From: Acidobacteriota bacterium
GTDB taxonomy: Bacteria > Acidobacteriota > Terriglobia > UBA7540
Direction of reading: 5' to 3'
DNA length: 41,388 nt
Assembly (NCBI GenBank): GCA_902812415.1
Contig: CADDZJ010000026.1
Span: 1 to 41,388, forward strand
Each line of letters begins with the position of its first letter. Position 1 is the first letter of the stretch. This document shows positions 1 to 6,867 of this stretch, one piece after another. Under the pieces are notes generated by a model. It was not told the DNA's origin, made no database searches, and saw nothing but the letters and a program-made list of their open reading frames with translations. A program made the position numbers and the translations under genes.

Positions 1-217
1 GGAAATCCTGAGGTTTTTCTTTGATGTGGATTTTGACGGGAATAAAGTTCTGCGCGATAAAGTTTTGCACCGGCGCCTGTGTATAAACCTCGGCATCCAG
101 CCGAGCGCATCCCCCTCACATCGGCGCGGCGCTGAAATCCAGCAGCGCCATTTTGCCTTGCAATTTCGCCATCTGGAGTCCTTGATCTGCGTCACGAATC
201 CATTGGATATCAGCCAT
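1..217 (-). CDS. Thioredoxin-like selenoprotein (UxxC active site), 3' end outside window
   Basis: Read on minus from an ATG at 217, with a strong GGAGG ribosome site 10 nt upstream (228-233), the frame gives 72 codons and leaves the window. Codon 34 (118-116) is TGA; everything on both sides stays coding. The residues around it read DFSAAPM-U-GGC-ARLDAEVY, the pattern of thioredoxin-7/DsbD-gamma-like proteins (DFxAxWCxxCxxL...V). The TGA lies exactly where the first Cys of CxxC is expected, giving UGGC. After it come AQNFIPVKIHIKE, a typical thioredoxin-fold beta strand. A perfect 6-bp hairpin follows the TGA at the right distance for a bacterial SECIS. The likely role is a thiol/selenol redox enzyme; the substrate is unknown. 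No signal peptide is seen, so it is probably cytoplasmic. A TACAAT at 250-255 could be its -10 box. The alternative is a nonsense mutation, but the intact flanks and hairpin argue against that. SelA, SelB and tRNA-Sec are not in this window. Confidence 0.72.
89..118 (-). promoter_or_regulatory. Putative bacterial SECIS hairpin with its UGA codon
   Basis: On minus the UGA occupies 118-116. Sixteen nucleotides later a perfect 6-bp stem begins its loop: CUCGGC (105-100), loop UGGAU (99-95), GCCGAG (94-89). Known bacterial SECIS elements are hairpins immediately downstream of UGA, with the apical loop about 16-37 nt away and a G in the first two loop positions. Both conditions are met here (G is loop position 2). 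The same bases encode ARLDAE, so some structure could be coincidental, but the exact distance and perfect pairing support SelB-dependent decoding. Confidence 0.65.
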
Positions 218-508
218 AACTTGAAAACCTCCTGTTTGCGTTCCTCTCTATTGTAGCGAATTGGATGATCCCCGAATATGGCGGGTGTGGAAAATCGAAG
301 ACGCAAGTTTTGAGTCGGAGAAGCTAGAGGCGTTTGACTGGGCGGTAAACACGCTTTGATAAGCAGAATCGCTTCATCCCATACGCCGATTTGTCCGATA
401 AATGCAATGAGGGGATCGCGGGGAGGACGATTTCCAAGATTTGAGCTCGCCGGAGGCTCAGCGATTCGGCGCTTGGCGGAAGTGAAATTTCGTAATAGGA
501 TTCACTGT

Positions 509-853
509 ATGAATAAACCTCGAGCTGTTCTCCTCGCACTCGTGTTGTCGGTTGTAATTGGGGCAGGCACATTAGGAGCCGCGCAAAAGTCCTTTTCCGG
601 GATTAAGGAGCTGAAGCGCCAGCAGAAGCTGGAACGCAAGCAGCTTCAGATGACTCAGAAGATCTGGAAGAAGTCTTTCCGAGGGCGGCACATTCCGCGC
701 GCTGAAAAGCTCGCCATTGAGCACCAATACAAGTGGCAGATGCGCAATCTCAAAATGCAGCAGAAAGAGCAGCTCCAGCGCATGAAAGACCAGCAAAAGG
801 TCTGGAAAGTTCAGCAGCGCCATGTGTATTCTGGCGGAACGATGATCCAATAA
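509..853 (+). CDS. Small secreted charged, coiled-coil-like protein of unknown function
   Basis: A 114-aa product. The ATG at 509 is chosen because AGGA lies 8 nt upstream and the protein then begins with a clean signal peptide (MNKPRAVLLALVLSVVIGAG..LGAAQ). The mature part is almost wholly K/R/Q/E/L with heptad-like spacing (KELKRQQKLERKQLQMTQK, QYKWQMRNLKMQQKEQLQR), which suggests a long helical or coiled-coil periplasmic protein. It ends with HVYSGGTMIQ. I recognise no domain. It lies 108 nt before another secreted protein gene on the same strand, so they may be co-transcribed. An upstream in-frame ATG at 356 would add a non-signal extension and has no ribosome site. Confidence 0.6.
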   Translation: MNKPRAVLLALVLSVVIGAGTLGAAQKSFSGIKELKRQQKLERKQLQMTQKIWKKSFRGRHIPRAEKLAIEHQYKWQMRNLKMQQKEQLQRMKDQQKVWKVQQRHVYSGGTMIQ

Positions 854-961
854 ATGTCCGGCATGGACCGTTGGAGGCCCGATTTCCGCAGAGCCAGCAA
901 AAACGCCGCTCGCTTTATTTTCTGGTAGAATAAGTTCATCTTAAGCGTCGCGGAGGCCGCG

Positions 962-1486
962 ATGAGATGGCTGAGTTTATTTCTGATTTGCTTGCTCTTT
1001 TCAGGAGCGGCGATCTCCAGCCAGGATAGCTCCCCGCAACAACAGCAGGAACAGCGTCCCACGCTGGGTAAAGAGCCTGAACAACGAAGACCTACCTTGG
1101 GCGCTGCTCCCTCACTGAACGGCCCTCTCACTGCAACCATCATGGATGCCCGCAAACTTCGGCGGGTGAGAACGGTTTACATTGGAATGATGGACAATCA
1201 GTTGAATCTCAGGCTCAGCGAAGACCTGAACAAGCACGGGCCTTTTCGCGTGGTCGATAATCGCAACTCGGCGGACGCGATCCTGCAGGGAACGTGTTTT
1301 GATTCCCTTCACCTGAGAGAAGTGCATTCGGAAGTTTTCCTCACCGGGCGGGATGGCAAAGCCATCTGGCAGGATATTATCCACGAGCCTTATCACCCTC
1401 CCTCGCTCGCGAAAGCCGTCGATAATACGGCTGAAAAAATTGTGCTGCACCTCCAGGAAAGCATCGGACAAGCGGGACGTCGGTAG
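962..1486 (+). CDS. Secreted protein of unknown function with duplicated RPTLG motif
   Basis: A 174-aa product with GGAGG 5 nt before the ATG. Residues 1-20 form a signal peptide (MRWLSLFLICLLFSGAAISS). A low-complexity Q-rich linker follows, with RPTLG occurring twice about 12 residues apart. The C-terminal 110 residues look folded: VRTVYIGMMDNQLNLRLSEDLNKHGPFRVVDNRNSADAILQGTC, then a strand pair ending GRDGKAIWQD and a terminal helix. The layout (small alpha/beta unit asking whether a component is 'more-than-noise' among periplasmic nucleotide-free proteins) recalls the fold of LptE- or CsgG-like periplasmic proteins, but the similarity is only of pattern and I do not assign a family. It probably acts in the periplasm. 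Confidence 0.6.
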   Translation: MRWLSLFLICLLFSGAAISSQDSSPQQQQEQRPTLGKEPEQRRPTLGAAPSLNGPLTATIMDARKLRRVRTVYIGMMDNQLNLRLSEDLNKHGPFRVVDNRNSADAILQGTCFDSLHLREVHSEVFLTGRDGKAIWQDIIHEPYHPPSLAKAVDNTAEKIVLHLQESIGQAGRR

Positions 1487-3525: not shown

Positions 3526-6500
3526 ATGCCAATCAGATTAACGTCAAAGCAGTATCGCGTCATCGCTATCGCCATTGTGGTGGCTGCCGCTTCGTTCGTG
3601 ATTGGATGGAAGTATTTCTCGCACGCCTTTCCGGAGGCAGCCATCCAGTTTCGCGTCGATCGCGGCAGTTCGCGGCAGATCGCGCAGCAGTTCCTGGCCG
3701 CTCGCGGCTTCCATCTGGAAAATTATCGTCATGCTGCGGTCTTCAGCTACGACGACATGGCAAAGCTTTATCTTGAGCGAACGCAAGGGCTGAAGCGCAT
3801 GGATCAGCTCACGCGAGGGCCTGTGCACCTGTGGCGATGGTCGCATCGCTGGTTCAAGCCGTTTCAGAAAGAAGAGTTCCGCATCGAGGTGACCCCTGAA
3901 GGCAAAGTCGTAGGCTTCGACCACGAGATTCCCGAGGATGCCCGAGGCGCGAATCTGGCCCAGCCGCAGGCCCGCGCGATTGCCGAACAGTTCCTCAGCC
4001 AGGAGATGAAGCGCGACGTGGGCGACCTGGAATTTGTAGATGCCGAACAGAGAAAACGTCCCGCGCGCACCGACTATGTTTTCACGTGGAAACAGAAGAG
4101 CGTCGATCTTGGCAACGGCAGCCTTCGGATTGCCGTTCGGGTGGATGGCGACCAGGTAGCCGGCTATCAGGAATTTGTGAAGATTCCCGAAGACTGGCTG
4201 CGAGGCTATCAGAAGCTGCGGTCCAGGAATATCGCCGCGCAAATTGTGGATCAGGTCTTCTGGGTGTTTCTCAGCATCGCGATGCTGGTGATTCTGGTGC
4301 GCAAGCTTCGCGATCATGACGCGCCGTTGCGGCTGGCCTTGGGCTTTGGGCTGGTGGCCGCTGCGCTCGCTTTTCTCAGTCAACTGAACTCCTTTCCGCT
4401 TGCGAAGTTCTCCTATCCAACCACCGATTCATACTCCAGCTTCCTTTCGAGCTATGTCTTGGAGGCGCTGTTAGGAGGCCTGGGACTCGGCGTGCTCATC
4501 TTTCTGCTGGTAGCTTCGTCGGAGCCGGTCTATCGGGAAGGCTTTCCAGGATTTGTCTCTTTTCGCCGCTATTTCACCTGGCACGGATTGCGCACCCGCT
4601 CCTTTTTGATGGCCAACATCGTAGGCATCTCGCTGACGTTCTTCTTCTTTGCTTATCAAACAGTGTTTTACCTGCTCGCCAACCATCTGGGCGCGTGGGC
4701 GCCGGCGGATATTCCTTTTTCCAATCAGCTCAACACGCGCATTCCGTGGGTTGCGGTGCTCTTCACGGGATTCTTTCCGGCAGTTTCCGAAGAGATGCAG
4801 TTTCGCGCCTTCGCAATCCCGTTTCTAAAAAAGATCACCCGCTCATGGCCGCTGGCCCTGGGACTTGCGGCCTTTAACTGGGGATTCCTGCATTCCGCCT
4901 ATCCCAACGAGCCGTTTTTCATTCGAGGTGTTGAGGTGGGAGTGGGCGGCATTATTGTGGGAATCATCATGTTGCGCTTCGGAATTCTGGCCACATTGAT
5001 GTGGCACTATTCTGTGGATGCGCTTTACACCGCCTTCTTGTTGCTGCGCTCGCCGAATCATTACCTGATGATCTCCGGCGGCCTTTCAGCCGGGATCATG
5101 CTGATTCCTCTCATCGTGGCATTGATCGCCTATCTGGGCACAGGCACTTTCGCCGATGAATCTCAAATCACGAATGCCAGCGCCGGCGTTGCGCGGGCGG
5201 CGCGCATTGAAGAAGCGGCCGAGGTGGAATCCATAAACTATCAGCCACTTTCGAAGCGCAAGCTCCTGGCCGCTGGTTGTGTGATTGTGATCTTCTTTGC
5301 GCTGGGCGCCATCAGAGTTTATCGTCTGGGTCAGGGAATCAAGATTCATATGACGCGCAGACAAGCTATACAGACGGCTGTAACTTTTCTGCAAGCTCGC
5401 CACGTTTCAGTGGCTTCTTATCATTCGGTAGCGTGGCTGGATGCGAACATCGATCCCATGGCGTTGCGCTATATGCTCCAGCGGTTGTCAGTGGAACGAA
5501 CAGACCAGGTGATGCGCCAGGCGACGCAGCCCCTTCTCTGGGAAGTGCGCTTTTTCAAGCCTTTGCAGAAAGAAGAGTATCGGGTCTTCGTGGATGTGGT
5601 CGGCGGAAAAGTGTTTGACTATCAGCATCTCCTGGATGAAACAGCGCCGGGAGCAAGTTTGACTCCTGAGCAGGCTCTGGCGCTTGGCGAGCAGGCCGTG
5701 GCTGCGCACGGCTATTCGCTGGCCGATTTCGCCCTTCAGGATACTGAGGCGCAGAGACGCAAAGCGCGTGAGGATTATACGCTGGTCTGGCAGGCAAAAC
5801 CTGGCGATCCCCGCAACGTGGGCGACGCGCATTATCGTCTGGAAGTCCAGATTGCCGGCGACCAGGTGGTTGGTTTTTCGCGCCATTTCAAGCTTCCCGA
5901 ACAATGGCTGCGACAGCAGGAAACCACCCGGCTTGCCAATTCCGTTCTGTTGGGTCTTGAAATTGCTTTTGGCGCCTTCTTGATTGCTGGAGCGGTCTGG
6001 TTGTTTGTGAGGCAGGTGCGCCACGGCAAAATCCGCTGGGTGCGGTCGTTGAAAGTGGCCATTGTTCTCGCGGCGATCCTGGCGCTGGCTGAGCTTGACC
6101 AGCTTCCTTCACTGGCCCGTCTTTATGACACTTCCATTTCGTTTTCCAATTTCGAGCTTCAGATGGCCGTGGGGCTGATTACCGCGATTGTGCTGGGCGG
6201 GCTGGCGTTGTGGTTCGTCGTGGCGCTCGTCACCAGTCTTTACCCTGATGCGTGGAAAATCCTGCGCGCATCGGCTCGAAGAGTGTGGCGCCGTGACGCC
6301 GCTGTGGCTCTGCTGGTGGGGATTGCCGTGGCGTTCGGCATGGATAAGATTTTAGGGTTGCTGGCCAATCATTTTCACGCCGACGTTGCAATGGGATTCT
6401 TTGGATCGCTTCCGGCGTTCAACACGGCCTTGCCGGGTCTCGATGTTTTCTTCCGCGCGCTGATCTATAGCGTCGCAGGCGCTTCAGTTGTTGGGATTGC

Positions 6501-6867
6501 GATTTATGGCGCGCTTCTGGGCTGGCGGCGGCGAGCGTGGTGGTTCTGGGCAGGACTCGTTTTGTTGCTCGTTGCCTTGGGACCGGGTGGAGCGCATTCG
6601 GCGGCTGAATATGCGGTGAATTGGATGATGCGATTTCTGCCTTTGGTCGCAGGCGTCGTTGTGCTGGCGGCCTTTTTCAGAAATAACCTGCTGGCCTACG
6701 TGACGAGCGCCTTTGCCTCAGCCGCGGCCGCGCCTCTCGTAGAGATGTTCTCGCAGCCGAATTCATTCGCGCGCTGGAATGGCGCGGCGCTTGCTGTACT
6801 CGCGGCCATAGTTCTTATCTGGCTGCTCGCGCCGGTACCCCGCATCCGCCGCGCCGATGCGGGATAA
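3526..6867 (+). CDS. Large internally duplicated CPBP-family intramembrane protease-like protein
   Basis: A 1113-aa membrane protein made of two similar halves. Each begins with one helix (residues about 8-28 and 580-600), then a periplasmic-type PepSY-like region (LQKEEYRV / FQKEEFRI, then EDWLRGYQKL / EQWLRQQETT), then about eight membrane segments. The first half carries the CPBP (Abi/Rce1-like) catalytic motifs: EEMQFR at 422-427, FNWGFLH at 450-456 and HYSVD at 494-498. The second half has LDVFFR where EEMQFR should be and no matching His motifs, so it looks inactive. CPBP proteins are glutamate intramembrane proteases that process membrane substrates, or act in immunity; the substrate here is unknown. 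GAGG lies before the start codon, and the acetyltransferase gene ends 7 nt upstream. This length is about four times that of a minimal family member. The fused sensory-like domains suggest a controlled protease, which is inference. Confidence 0.75.
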   Translation: MPIRLTSKQYRVIAIAIVVAAASFVIGWKYFSHAFPEAAIQFRVDRGSSRQIAQQFLAARGFHLENYRHAAVFSYDDMAKLYLERTQGLKRMDQLTRGPVHLWRWSHRWFKPFQKEEFRIEVTPEGKVVGFDHEIPEDARGANLAQPQARAIAEQFLSQEMKRDVGDLEFVDAEQRKRPARTDYVFTWKQKSVDLGNGSLRIAVRVDGDQVAGYQEFVKIPEDWLRGYQKLRSRNIAAQIVDQVFWVFLSIAMLVILVRKLRDHDAPLRLALGFGLVAAALAFLSQLNSFPLAKFSYPTTDSYSSFLSSYVLEALLGGLGLGVLIFLLVASSEPVYREGFPGFVSFRRYFTWHGLRTRSFLMANIVGISLTFFFFAYQTVFYLLANHLGAWAPADIPFSNQLNTRIPWVAVLFTGFFPAVSEEMQFRAFAIPFLKKITRSWPLALGLAAFNWGFLHSAYPNEPFFIRGVEVGVGGIIVGIIMLRFGILATLMWHYSVDALYTAFLLLRSPNHYLMISGGLSAGIMLIPLIVALIAYLGTGTFADESQITNASAGVARAARIEEAAEVESINYQPLSKRKLLAAGCVIVIFFALGAIRVYRLGQGIKIHMTRRQAIQTAVTFLQARHVSVASYHSVAWLDANIDPMALRYMLQRLSVERTDQVMRQATQPLLWEVRFFKPLQKEEYRVFVDVVGGKVFDYQHLLDETAPGASLTPEQALALGEQAVAAHGYSLADFALQDTEAQRRKAREDYTLVWQAKPGDPRNVGDAHYRLEVQIAGDQVVGFSRHFKLPEQWLRQQETTRLANSVLLGLEIAFGAFLIAGAVWLFVRQVRHGKIRWVRSLKVAIVLAAILALAELDQLPSLARLYDTSISFSNFELQMAVGLITAIVLGGLALWFVVALVTSLYPDAWKILRASARRVWRRDAAVALLVGIAVAFGMDKILGLLANHFHADVAMGFFGSLPAFNTALPGLDVFFRALIYSVAGASVVGIAIYGALLGWRRRAWWFWAGLVLLLVALGPGGAHSAAEYAVNWMMRFLPLVAGVVVLAAFFRNNLLAYVTSAFASAAAAPLVEMFSQPNSFARWNGAALAVLAAIVLIWLLAPVPRIRRADAG

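Follow-up and report, generated by a model that had tools for sequence, protein, structure and literature searches.

A predicted thioredoxin–TPR selenoprotein of an uncultured soil acidobacterium, with a SECIS hairpin 16 nt behind its UGA codon

At its first edge, the window analysed here (a 41,388-nucleotide stretch of an Acidobacteriota genome, contig CADDZJ010000026.1) carries the 5′ part of what is very probably a functional bacterial selenoprotein gene, whose UGA codon 34 would be decoded as selenocysteine (Sec) by SelB and tRNA-Sec, directed by a downstream hairpin. Sequence evidence supports the reading frame, the position of Sec, the SECIS element, the machinery for Sec decoding and the order of domains; catalysis, partners and location are inferred. 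The features concerned are as follows.

Positions 1–217, minus strand: selenoprotein gene, 5′ 72 codons, thioredoxin domain up to ...KEKPQDF (translation with TGA as U; Pfam; C198 overlap).
Positions 116–118, minus strand: in-frame TGA, codon 34, predicted Sec, first residue of UGGC (TGA in 60/60 full-length homologs).
Positions 107–109, minus strand: TGC codon of Cys37, putative resolving cysteine of UxxC (invariant in aligned homologs).
Positions 89–105, minus strand: predicted bSECIS hairpin CUCGGC-UGGAU-GCCGAG (published consensus model; frozen synonymous stem codons; R/Q compensation in two relatives).
Positions 228–233, minus strand: Shine–Dalgarno sequence AGGAGG, 10 nt before the ATG (direct reading).
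Positions 1–127, no strand assigned: sequence shared exactly with the terminal 127 bases of contig C198 (its positions 4910–5036), which carries the remainder of the gene (sequence identity).

The minus-strand frame from 217 to 1 starts with ATG at 217–215, meets TGA at 118–116 and is otherwise open to the window end. AGGAGG lies at 233–228; the initial annotation of this DNA had described an excellent ribosome site. With TGA read as U, the frame gives MADIQWIRDADQGLQMAKLQGKMALLDFSAAPM-U-GGC-ARLDAEVY...; the motif is thus U-G-G-C (residues 34–37) and Sec takes the first position of a CxxC-type motif, as had been proposed. Window position 1 is the end of contig C26, which leaves the gene incomplete. 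Contig C198 of the same assembly, a 4.84-Mb draft in 261 contigs that is 96% complete and probably metagenome-assembled, shares an exact 127-base overlap and carries the frame onward. The protein joined across the two contigs has 189 amino acids; it begins MADIQWIRDADQGLQMAKLQGKMALLDFSAAPMUGGCARLDAEVY, passes through WTPTLILAEPDGTERFRFSGFLP and AAPEAIYWAGVSAYKQSGKPD, and ends in WAKKSSVWLN, after which come TGA and, three codons further, TAA. Within the joined gene there is a single internal TGA, no other internal stop and no frameshift. A 140-codon open reading frame with a GTG start was found 3′ of the UGA.

To survey homologs, we searched 396 genomes of the phylum and obtained more than twenty of full length, almost all of which contain one TGA, located at the same codon. 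GTDB contigs were also searched, with a pattern that starts at the second Cys and is blind to the Sec codon. This returned 65 loci, with TGA at the Sec codon in 60/60 full-length family members, three or four of which lie in metagenome-assembled genomes where the frame is broken or the contig stops further downstream (for example, L100, L135, L136 and L140). A few of the 65 loci have TGC or TGT at this codon; these are remote thioredoxins whose alignment falls short of the full length. Exact peptide patterns derived from the 72-residue peptide were too strict and found no match in the contigs. The TGA homologs span Acidobacteriota, Gemmatimonadota, Eisenbacteria, Zixibacteria and Desulfobacterota, with Geobacter (G. 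argillaceus), Syntrophus sp. and Desulfuromonas among the relatives recovered. The closest homolog, from a genome of the same family (G010), is 73% identical, or 67% over the 72-residue part. Cys37 of UxxC is invariant among aligned homologs. One Cys version, L083 (HCKGC), is full-length with a TPR-like tail; SelA was not found in its genome, G376. Sec in 60 full-length homologs, with Cys in L083 and in distant thioredoxins, agrees with the thioredoxin-like selenoprotein originally put forward.

These data also bear on a pseudogene reading, in which a thioredoxin gene is decaying and the TGA arose as a nonsense mutation, as a stop that interrupts the frame and a contig end that truncates it might suggest. 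Evidence against decay comes from the identical TGA in each of the 60 full-length homologs, which belong to several phyla and preserve the frame to either side of it, from the single TGA inside the joined gene and from the synonymous constraint on the hairpin described below. The pseudogene reading is refuted by the homolog set; we give it practically no credence and rejected it.

The hairpin consists of a 6-bp stem, CTCGGC (105–100) pairing with GCCGAG (94–89), closed by the 5-nt loop TGGAT (99–95). We compared it with the bSECIS consensus model as quoted in PMC13188914, which sets an apical loop of 3–9 nt, an upper stem of 4–16 bp, a G at loop position 1 or 2, a UGA-to-loop distance of 16–37 nt and a minimum free energy (MFE) of ≤ −7.5 kcal/mol. 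Applied as four constraints, the model agrees with the window hairpin in 4/4, with G at loop position 2, an MFE of −11.4 kcal/mol for the core hairpin and a spacer of 16 nt, the lower limit of the model. The stem length, the UGGAU loop and the G within its first two positions stand as initially described; the distance of 17 nt given there counts the first loop base, and the spacer itself is 16. The loop reads UGGA(A/U/G) in 53/53 sequences of the window's clade. An Rfam search of window positions 1–1000 gave no SECIS-like match. Since 82 of the 1458 TGAs in the window (5.6%, about 1 in 18) are followed by an equally good hairpin under the same rule, the hairpin alone is weak evidence, and its significance comes from homology and not from the hairpin score alone.

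Among the 48 sequences compared from the window's clade, stem codons are nearly frozen at synonymous sites: GCT for Ala38 (92% versus 12% background), CGG for Arg39 (46/46, 100% versus 24%), CTG for Leu40 (100% versus 36%), GCC for Ala42 (96% versus 33%) and GAG for Glu43 (98% versus 59%). Codon 41 (Glu/Asp), the third base of which falls in the loop, is free to vary, and most other conserved codons are near background; comparing the stem codons with other columns is the proper control, as a binomial P for the codon lock ignores shared ancestry. In two relatives, an Arg-to-Gln change (CGG to CAG) is paired with GCC to GCT, preserving the base pair. When ARLDAE was recoded at random with synonymous codons at family usage, all six pairs arose in 0.8% of trials. 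Judged from these substitution patterns, the downstream hairpin is under selection at the RNA level.

The source genome encodes the four components of Sec decoding for which the initial annotation had proposed a search: selA (E 1e-145), selB (E 3e-111), selD (E 1e-112) and selC, a tRNA-Sec with a TCA anticodon (UCA in RNA; 72.6 bits). The selD gene (L053 1501–2433, G000:C37, minus strand) is itself a selenoprotein gene with an in-frame TGA in GUAAK, UxxK being the motif listed for selenophosphate synthetase (PMC13188914); the genome thus has a further gene, independent of the first, that points to UGA being read as Sec. SelA scored above cut-off in 26/26 Acidobacteriota genomes with the TGA gene versus 13/30 compared genomes without it, a difference in the expected direction but confounded by kinship. 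In other phyla, selA was present in 16/18 genomes with the TGA gene, the exceptions being a genome where selA was matched in part, at the edge of a contig, and another that had none.

That UGA is clearly read as sense in this gene would also fit suppression or a genome-wide reassignment (to Trp or Gly, for instance, as in tables 4 or 25), with selenium not involved. This we consider highly improbable and rejected, because related thioredoxins have Cys at the aligned position, the genome contains the full Sec machinery, the downstream hairpin is under selection and the joined gene appears to terminate at UGA where homologs use various stops, so that UGA apparently still functions as a stop.

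The 72-residue part matches Pfam Thioredoxin_7 (E 1e-7), and the closest full-length homolog matches Thioredoxin_2 (PF13098), Thioredoxin_7 and TPR_6. The PF13098 score of that homolog is 43.8 bits against a cut-off of 27; the window fragment alone reaches 23.2. No NCBIfam family scored above cut-off for the protein, PHROGs gave nothing of use, and inspection of the N terminus revealed no evident signal sequence. For the closest homolog, an AlphaFold model built with a 36-sequence alignment (pLDDT 97, pTM 0.92) shows a thioredoxin fold followed by a helical C-terminal domain, with residue 34 directly preceding helix 35–44, the thioredoxin active-site position. Fold search matched DsbH, DsbD-gamma, thioredoxins and the thioredoxin–TPR protein YbbN/CnoX.

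In the mechanism that we propose, SelB and tRNA-Sec would read UGA34 as Sec, guided by the mRNA hairpin directly downstream, to give a probably cytoplasmic product of ~190 residues, in which a thioredoxin fold at the N terminus precedes a helical, TPR-like domain at the C terminus. The Sec34 selenolate may attack a disulfide or oxidized thiol of a substrate, Cys37 would resolve the mixed selenenylsulfide, and a thioredoxin reductase or similar donor could re-reduce the enzyme; the TPR domain probably touches the substrate or a partner. No gene neighbourhood that would point to a substrate or reductant is conserved over the 60 loci, and the sequence likewise identifies no substrate. The selenoprotein might instead act mainly as a CnoX-like redox-linked chaperone and not as a dithiol/disulfide reductase, given the same domain order, thioredoxin then TPR, and a structural match to YbbN/CnoX that extends over ~200 columns. 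We think this unlikely: the YbbN matches have an rmsd of ~11–13 and a TMq of 0.43–0.45, indicating that the two domains are arranged differently, and UxxC is invariant in the present family.

Selenoproteins probably of this family have been predicted before. A Sec-containing 'thiol:disulfide interchange protein' was listed for Geobacter metallireducens, G. uraniireducens (printed as uraniumreducens) and Syntrophus aciditrophicus (PMC1794560), and Table 1 of PMC13188914 gives the thiol:disulfide interchange protein family with PF13098, UxxC and WP_011366075.1. The protein described here shares with that family a UxxC motif (UGGC) in a Thioredoxin_2-type domain, with PF13098 above cut-off in the closest full-length homolog. 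TGA-bearing PF13098 matches in 13 genomes (G. argillaceus and its family) were of the thioredoxin–TPR type in 3/3 cases; together with the Geobacter and Syntrophus relatives, this makes it very probable that the family is known in Desulfobacterota. We conclude that it is probably the previously predicted UxxC thiol:disulfide interchange selenoprotein, matched by taxonomy, domain and Geobacter relatives. The computational checks proposed in the initial annotation all turned out in its favour, and its gene, Sec codon and SECIS stand; only 'new system' was too strong a term. The window's clade differs from that family in having SAAPMUGGC/SGC instead of NPxUIGC and a SECIS at +16 rather than +24, and in occurring in Acidobacteriota and other phyla. 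For this Acidobacteriota-centred clade, no NCBIfam model scored above cut-off and no describing paper was found in a literature search covering few subscription journals.

Other known families are more distant. Sec-containing thioredoxin (Trx, PF00085, UxxC) has the same fold and a UxxC active site, but the thioredoxin model TIGR01068 scores 21.3 bits against an equivalog cut-off of 96.8, and the present protein has a TPR-like C-terminal domain. The VPGUxxT family NF041383, with a related thioredoxin domain, is the best selenoprotein model for the 72-residue part at 37.2 bits, far below its 275-bit cut-off, and neither VPG nor UxxT occurs here. The chaperedoxin CnoX/YbbN likewise has a thioredoxin domain followed by TPR (Pfam and fold search), but is not a selenoprotein and packs its domains differently. 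For uncultured soil Acidobacteriota, the gene is a well-supported predicted addition to the selenoproteome. A thioredoxin–TPR family probably known from a few Geobacter and Syntrophus genomes is seen to carry Sec in all 60 full-length homologs that the unbiased contig search recovered, in several phyla. As the family lacks a dedicated NCBIfam model, these genes are liable to be truncated or given a downstream start in annotation.

The +16 hairpin is not retained in the NPxUIGC, PGULGC, AAPTUGAC and DGULGC subfamilies. All 16 sequences sampled from these (L138–L146, L075–L081, L086 and L173) instead have a GGAUGC/GUAUCC hairpin with its loop 24 nt or slightly more after the UGA. Its six pairs are intact in 16/16, with two-sided changes at two of them (G-C to A-U and A-U to G-C) and a third variable pair that appears as G-U, A-U or G-C. 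In a 65-protein tree, sequences of the +16 type group as a single clade (support 95/96), and the remaining Sec branches are of the +24 type. A single relocation of the SECIS within the family is the simplest reading that this suggests, although it hinges on rooting and a few long branches. We see about an even chance that the large Sec-only clade SAAPxU[G/S/A][G/A]C (Acidobacteriota, Gemmatimonadota, Eisenbacteria, Zixibacteria and others) represents a subfamily not yet described, in which the SECIS shifted by 8 nt, from GGAUGC/GUAUCC at +24 to CUCGGC/GCCGAG at +16, while Sec was never lost. If so, it would be a traceable SECIS repositioning inside a protein-coding stretch. Because subfamilies differ in where the SECIS lies, they provide a natural test of the hairpin features that SelB needs. 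L173 itself (G471:C58), from a relative of G. argillaceus, is a further thioredoxin–TPR selenoprotein variant, with DGULGCSAMNTGPY.

The gene is absent from three sampled genomes of the same genus (G001–G003), though two of them have a full selA; it is therefore not essential to the lineage, and the patchy presence within the genus suggests loss or transfer. Four loci from metagenome-assembled genomes labelled Verrucomicrobia, Terrabacteria or Deltaproteobacteria (L096, L102, L107 and L136) branch among Acidobacteriota and Gemmatimonadota sequences, L136 being similar to these but outside the tree; this odd placement suggests horizontal transfer or binning errors. Elsewhere in the window, positions 3526–6867 encode a 1113-residue membrane protein with YcdB-type (DUF4901) and CAAX-protease (Rce1-like) domains, the second half of which seems, by eye, to repeat parts of the first.
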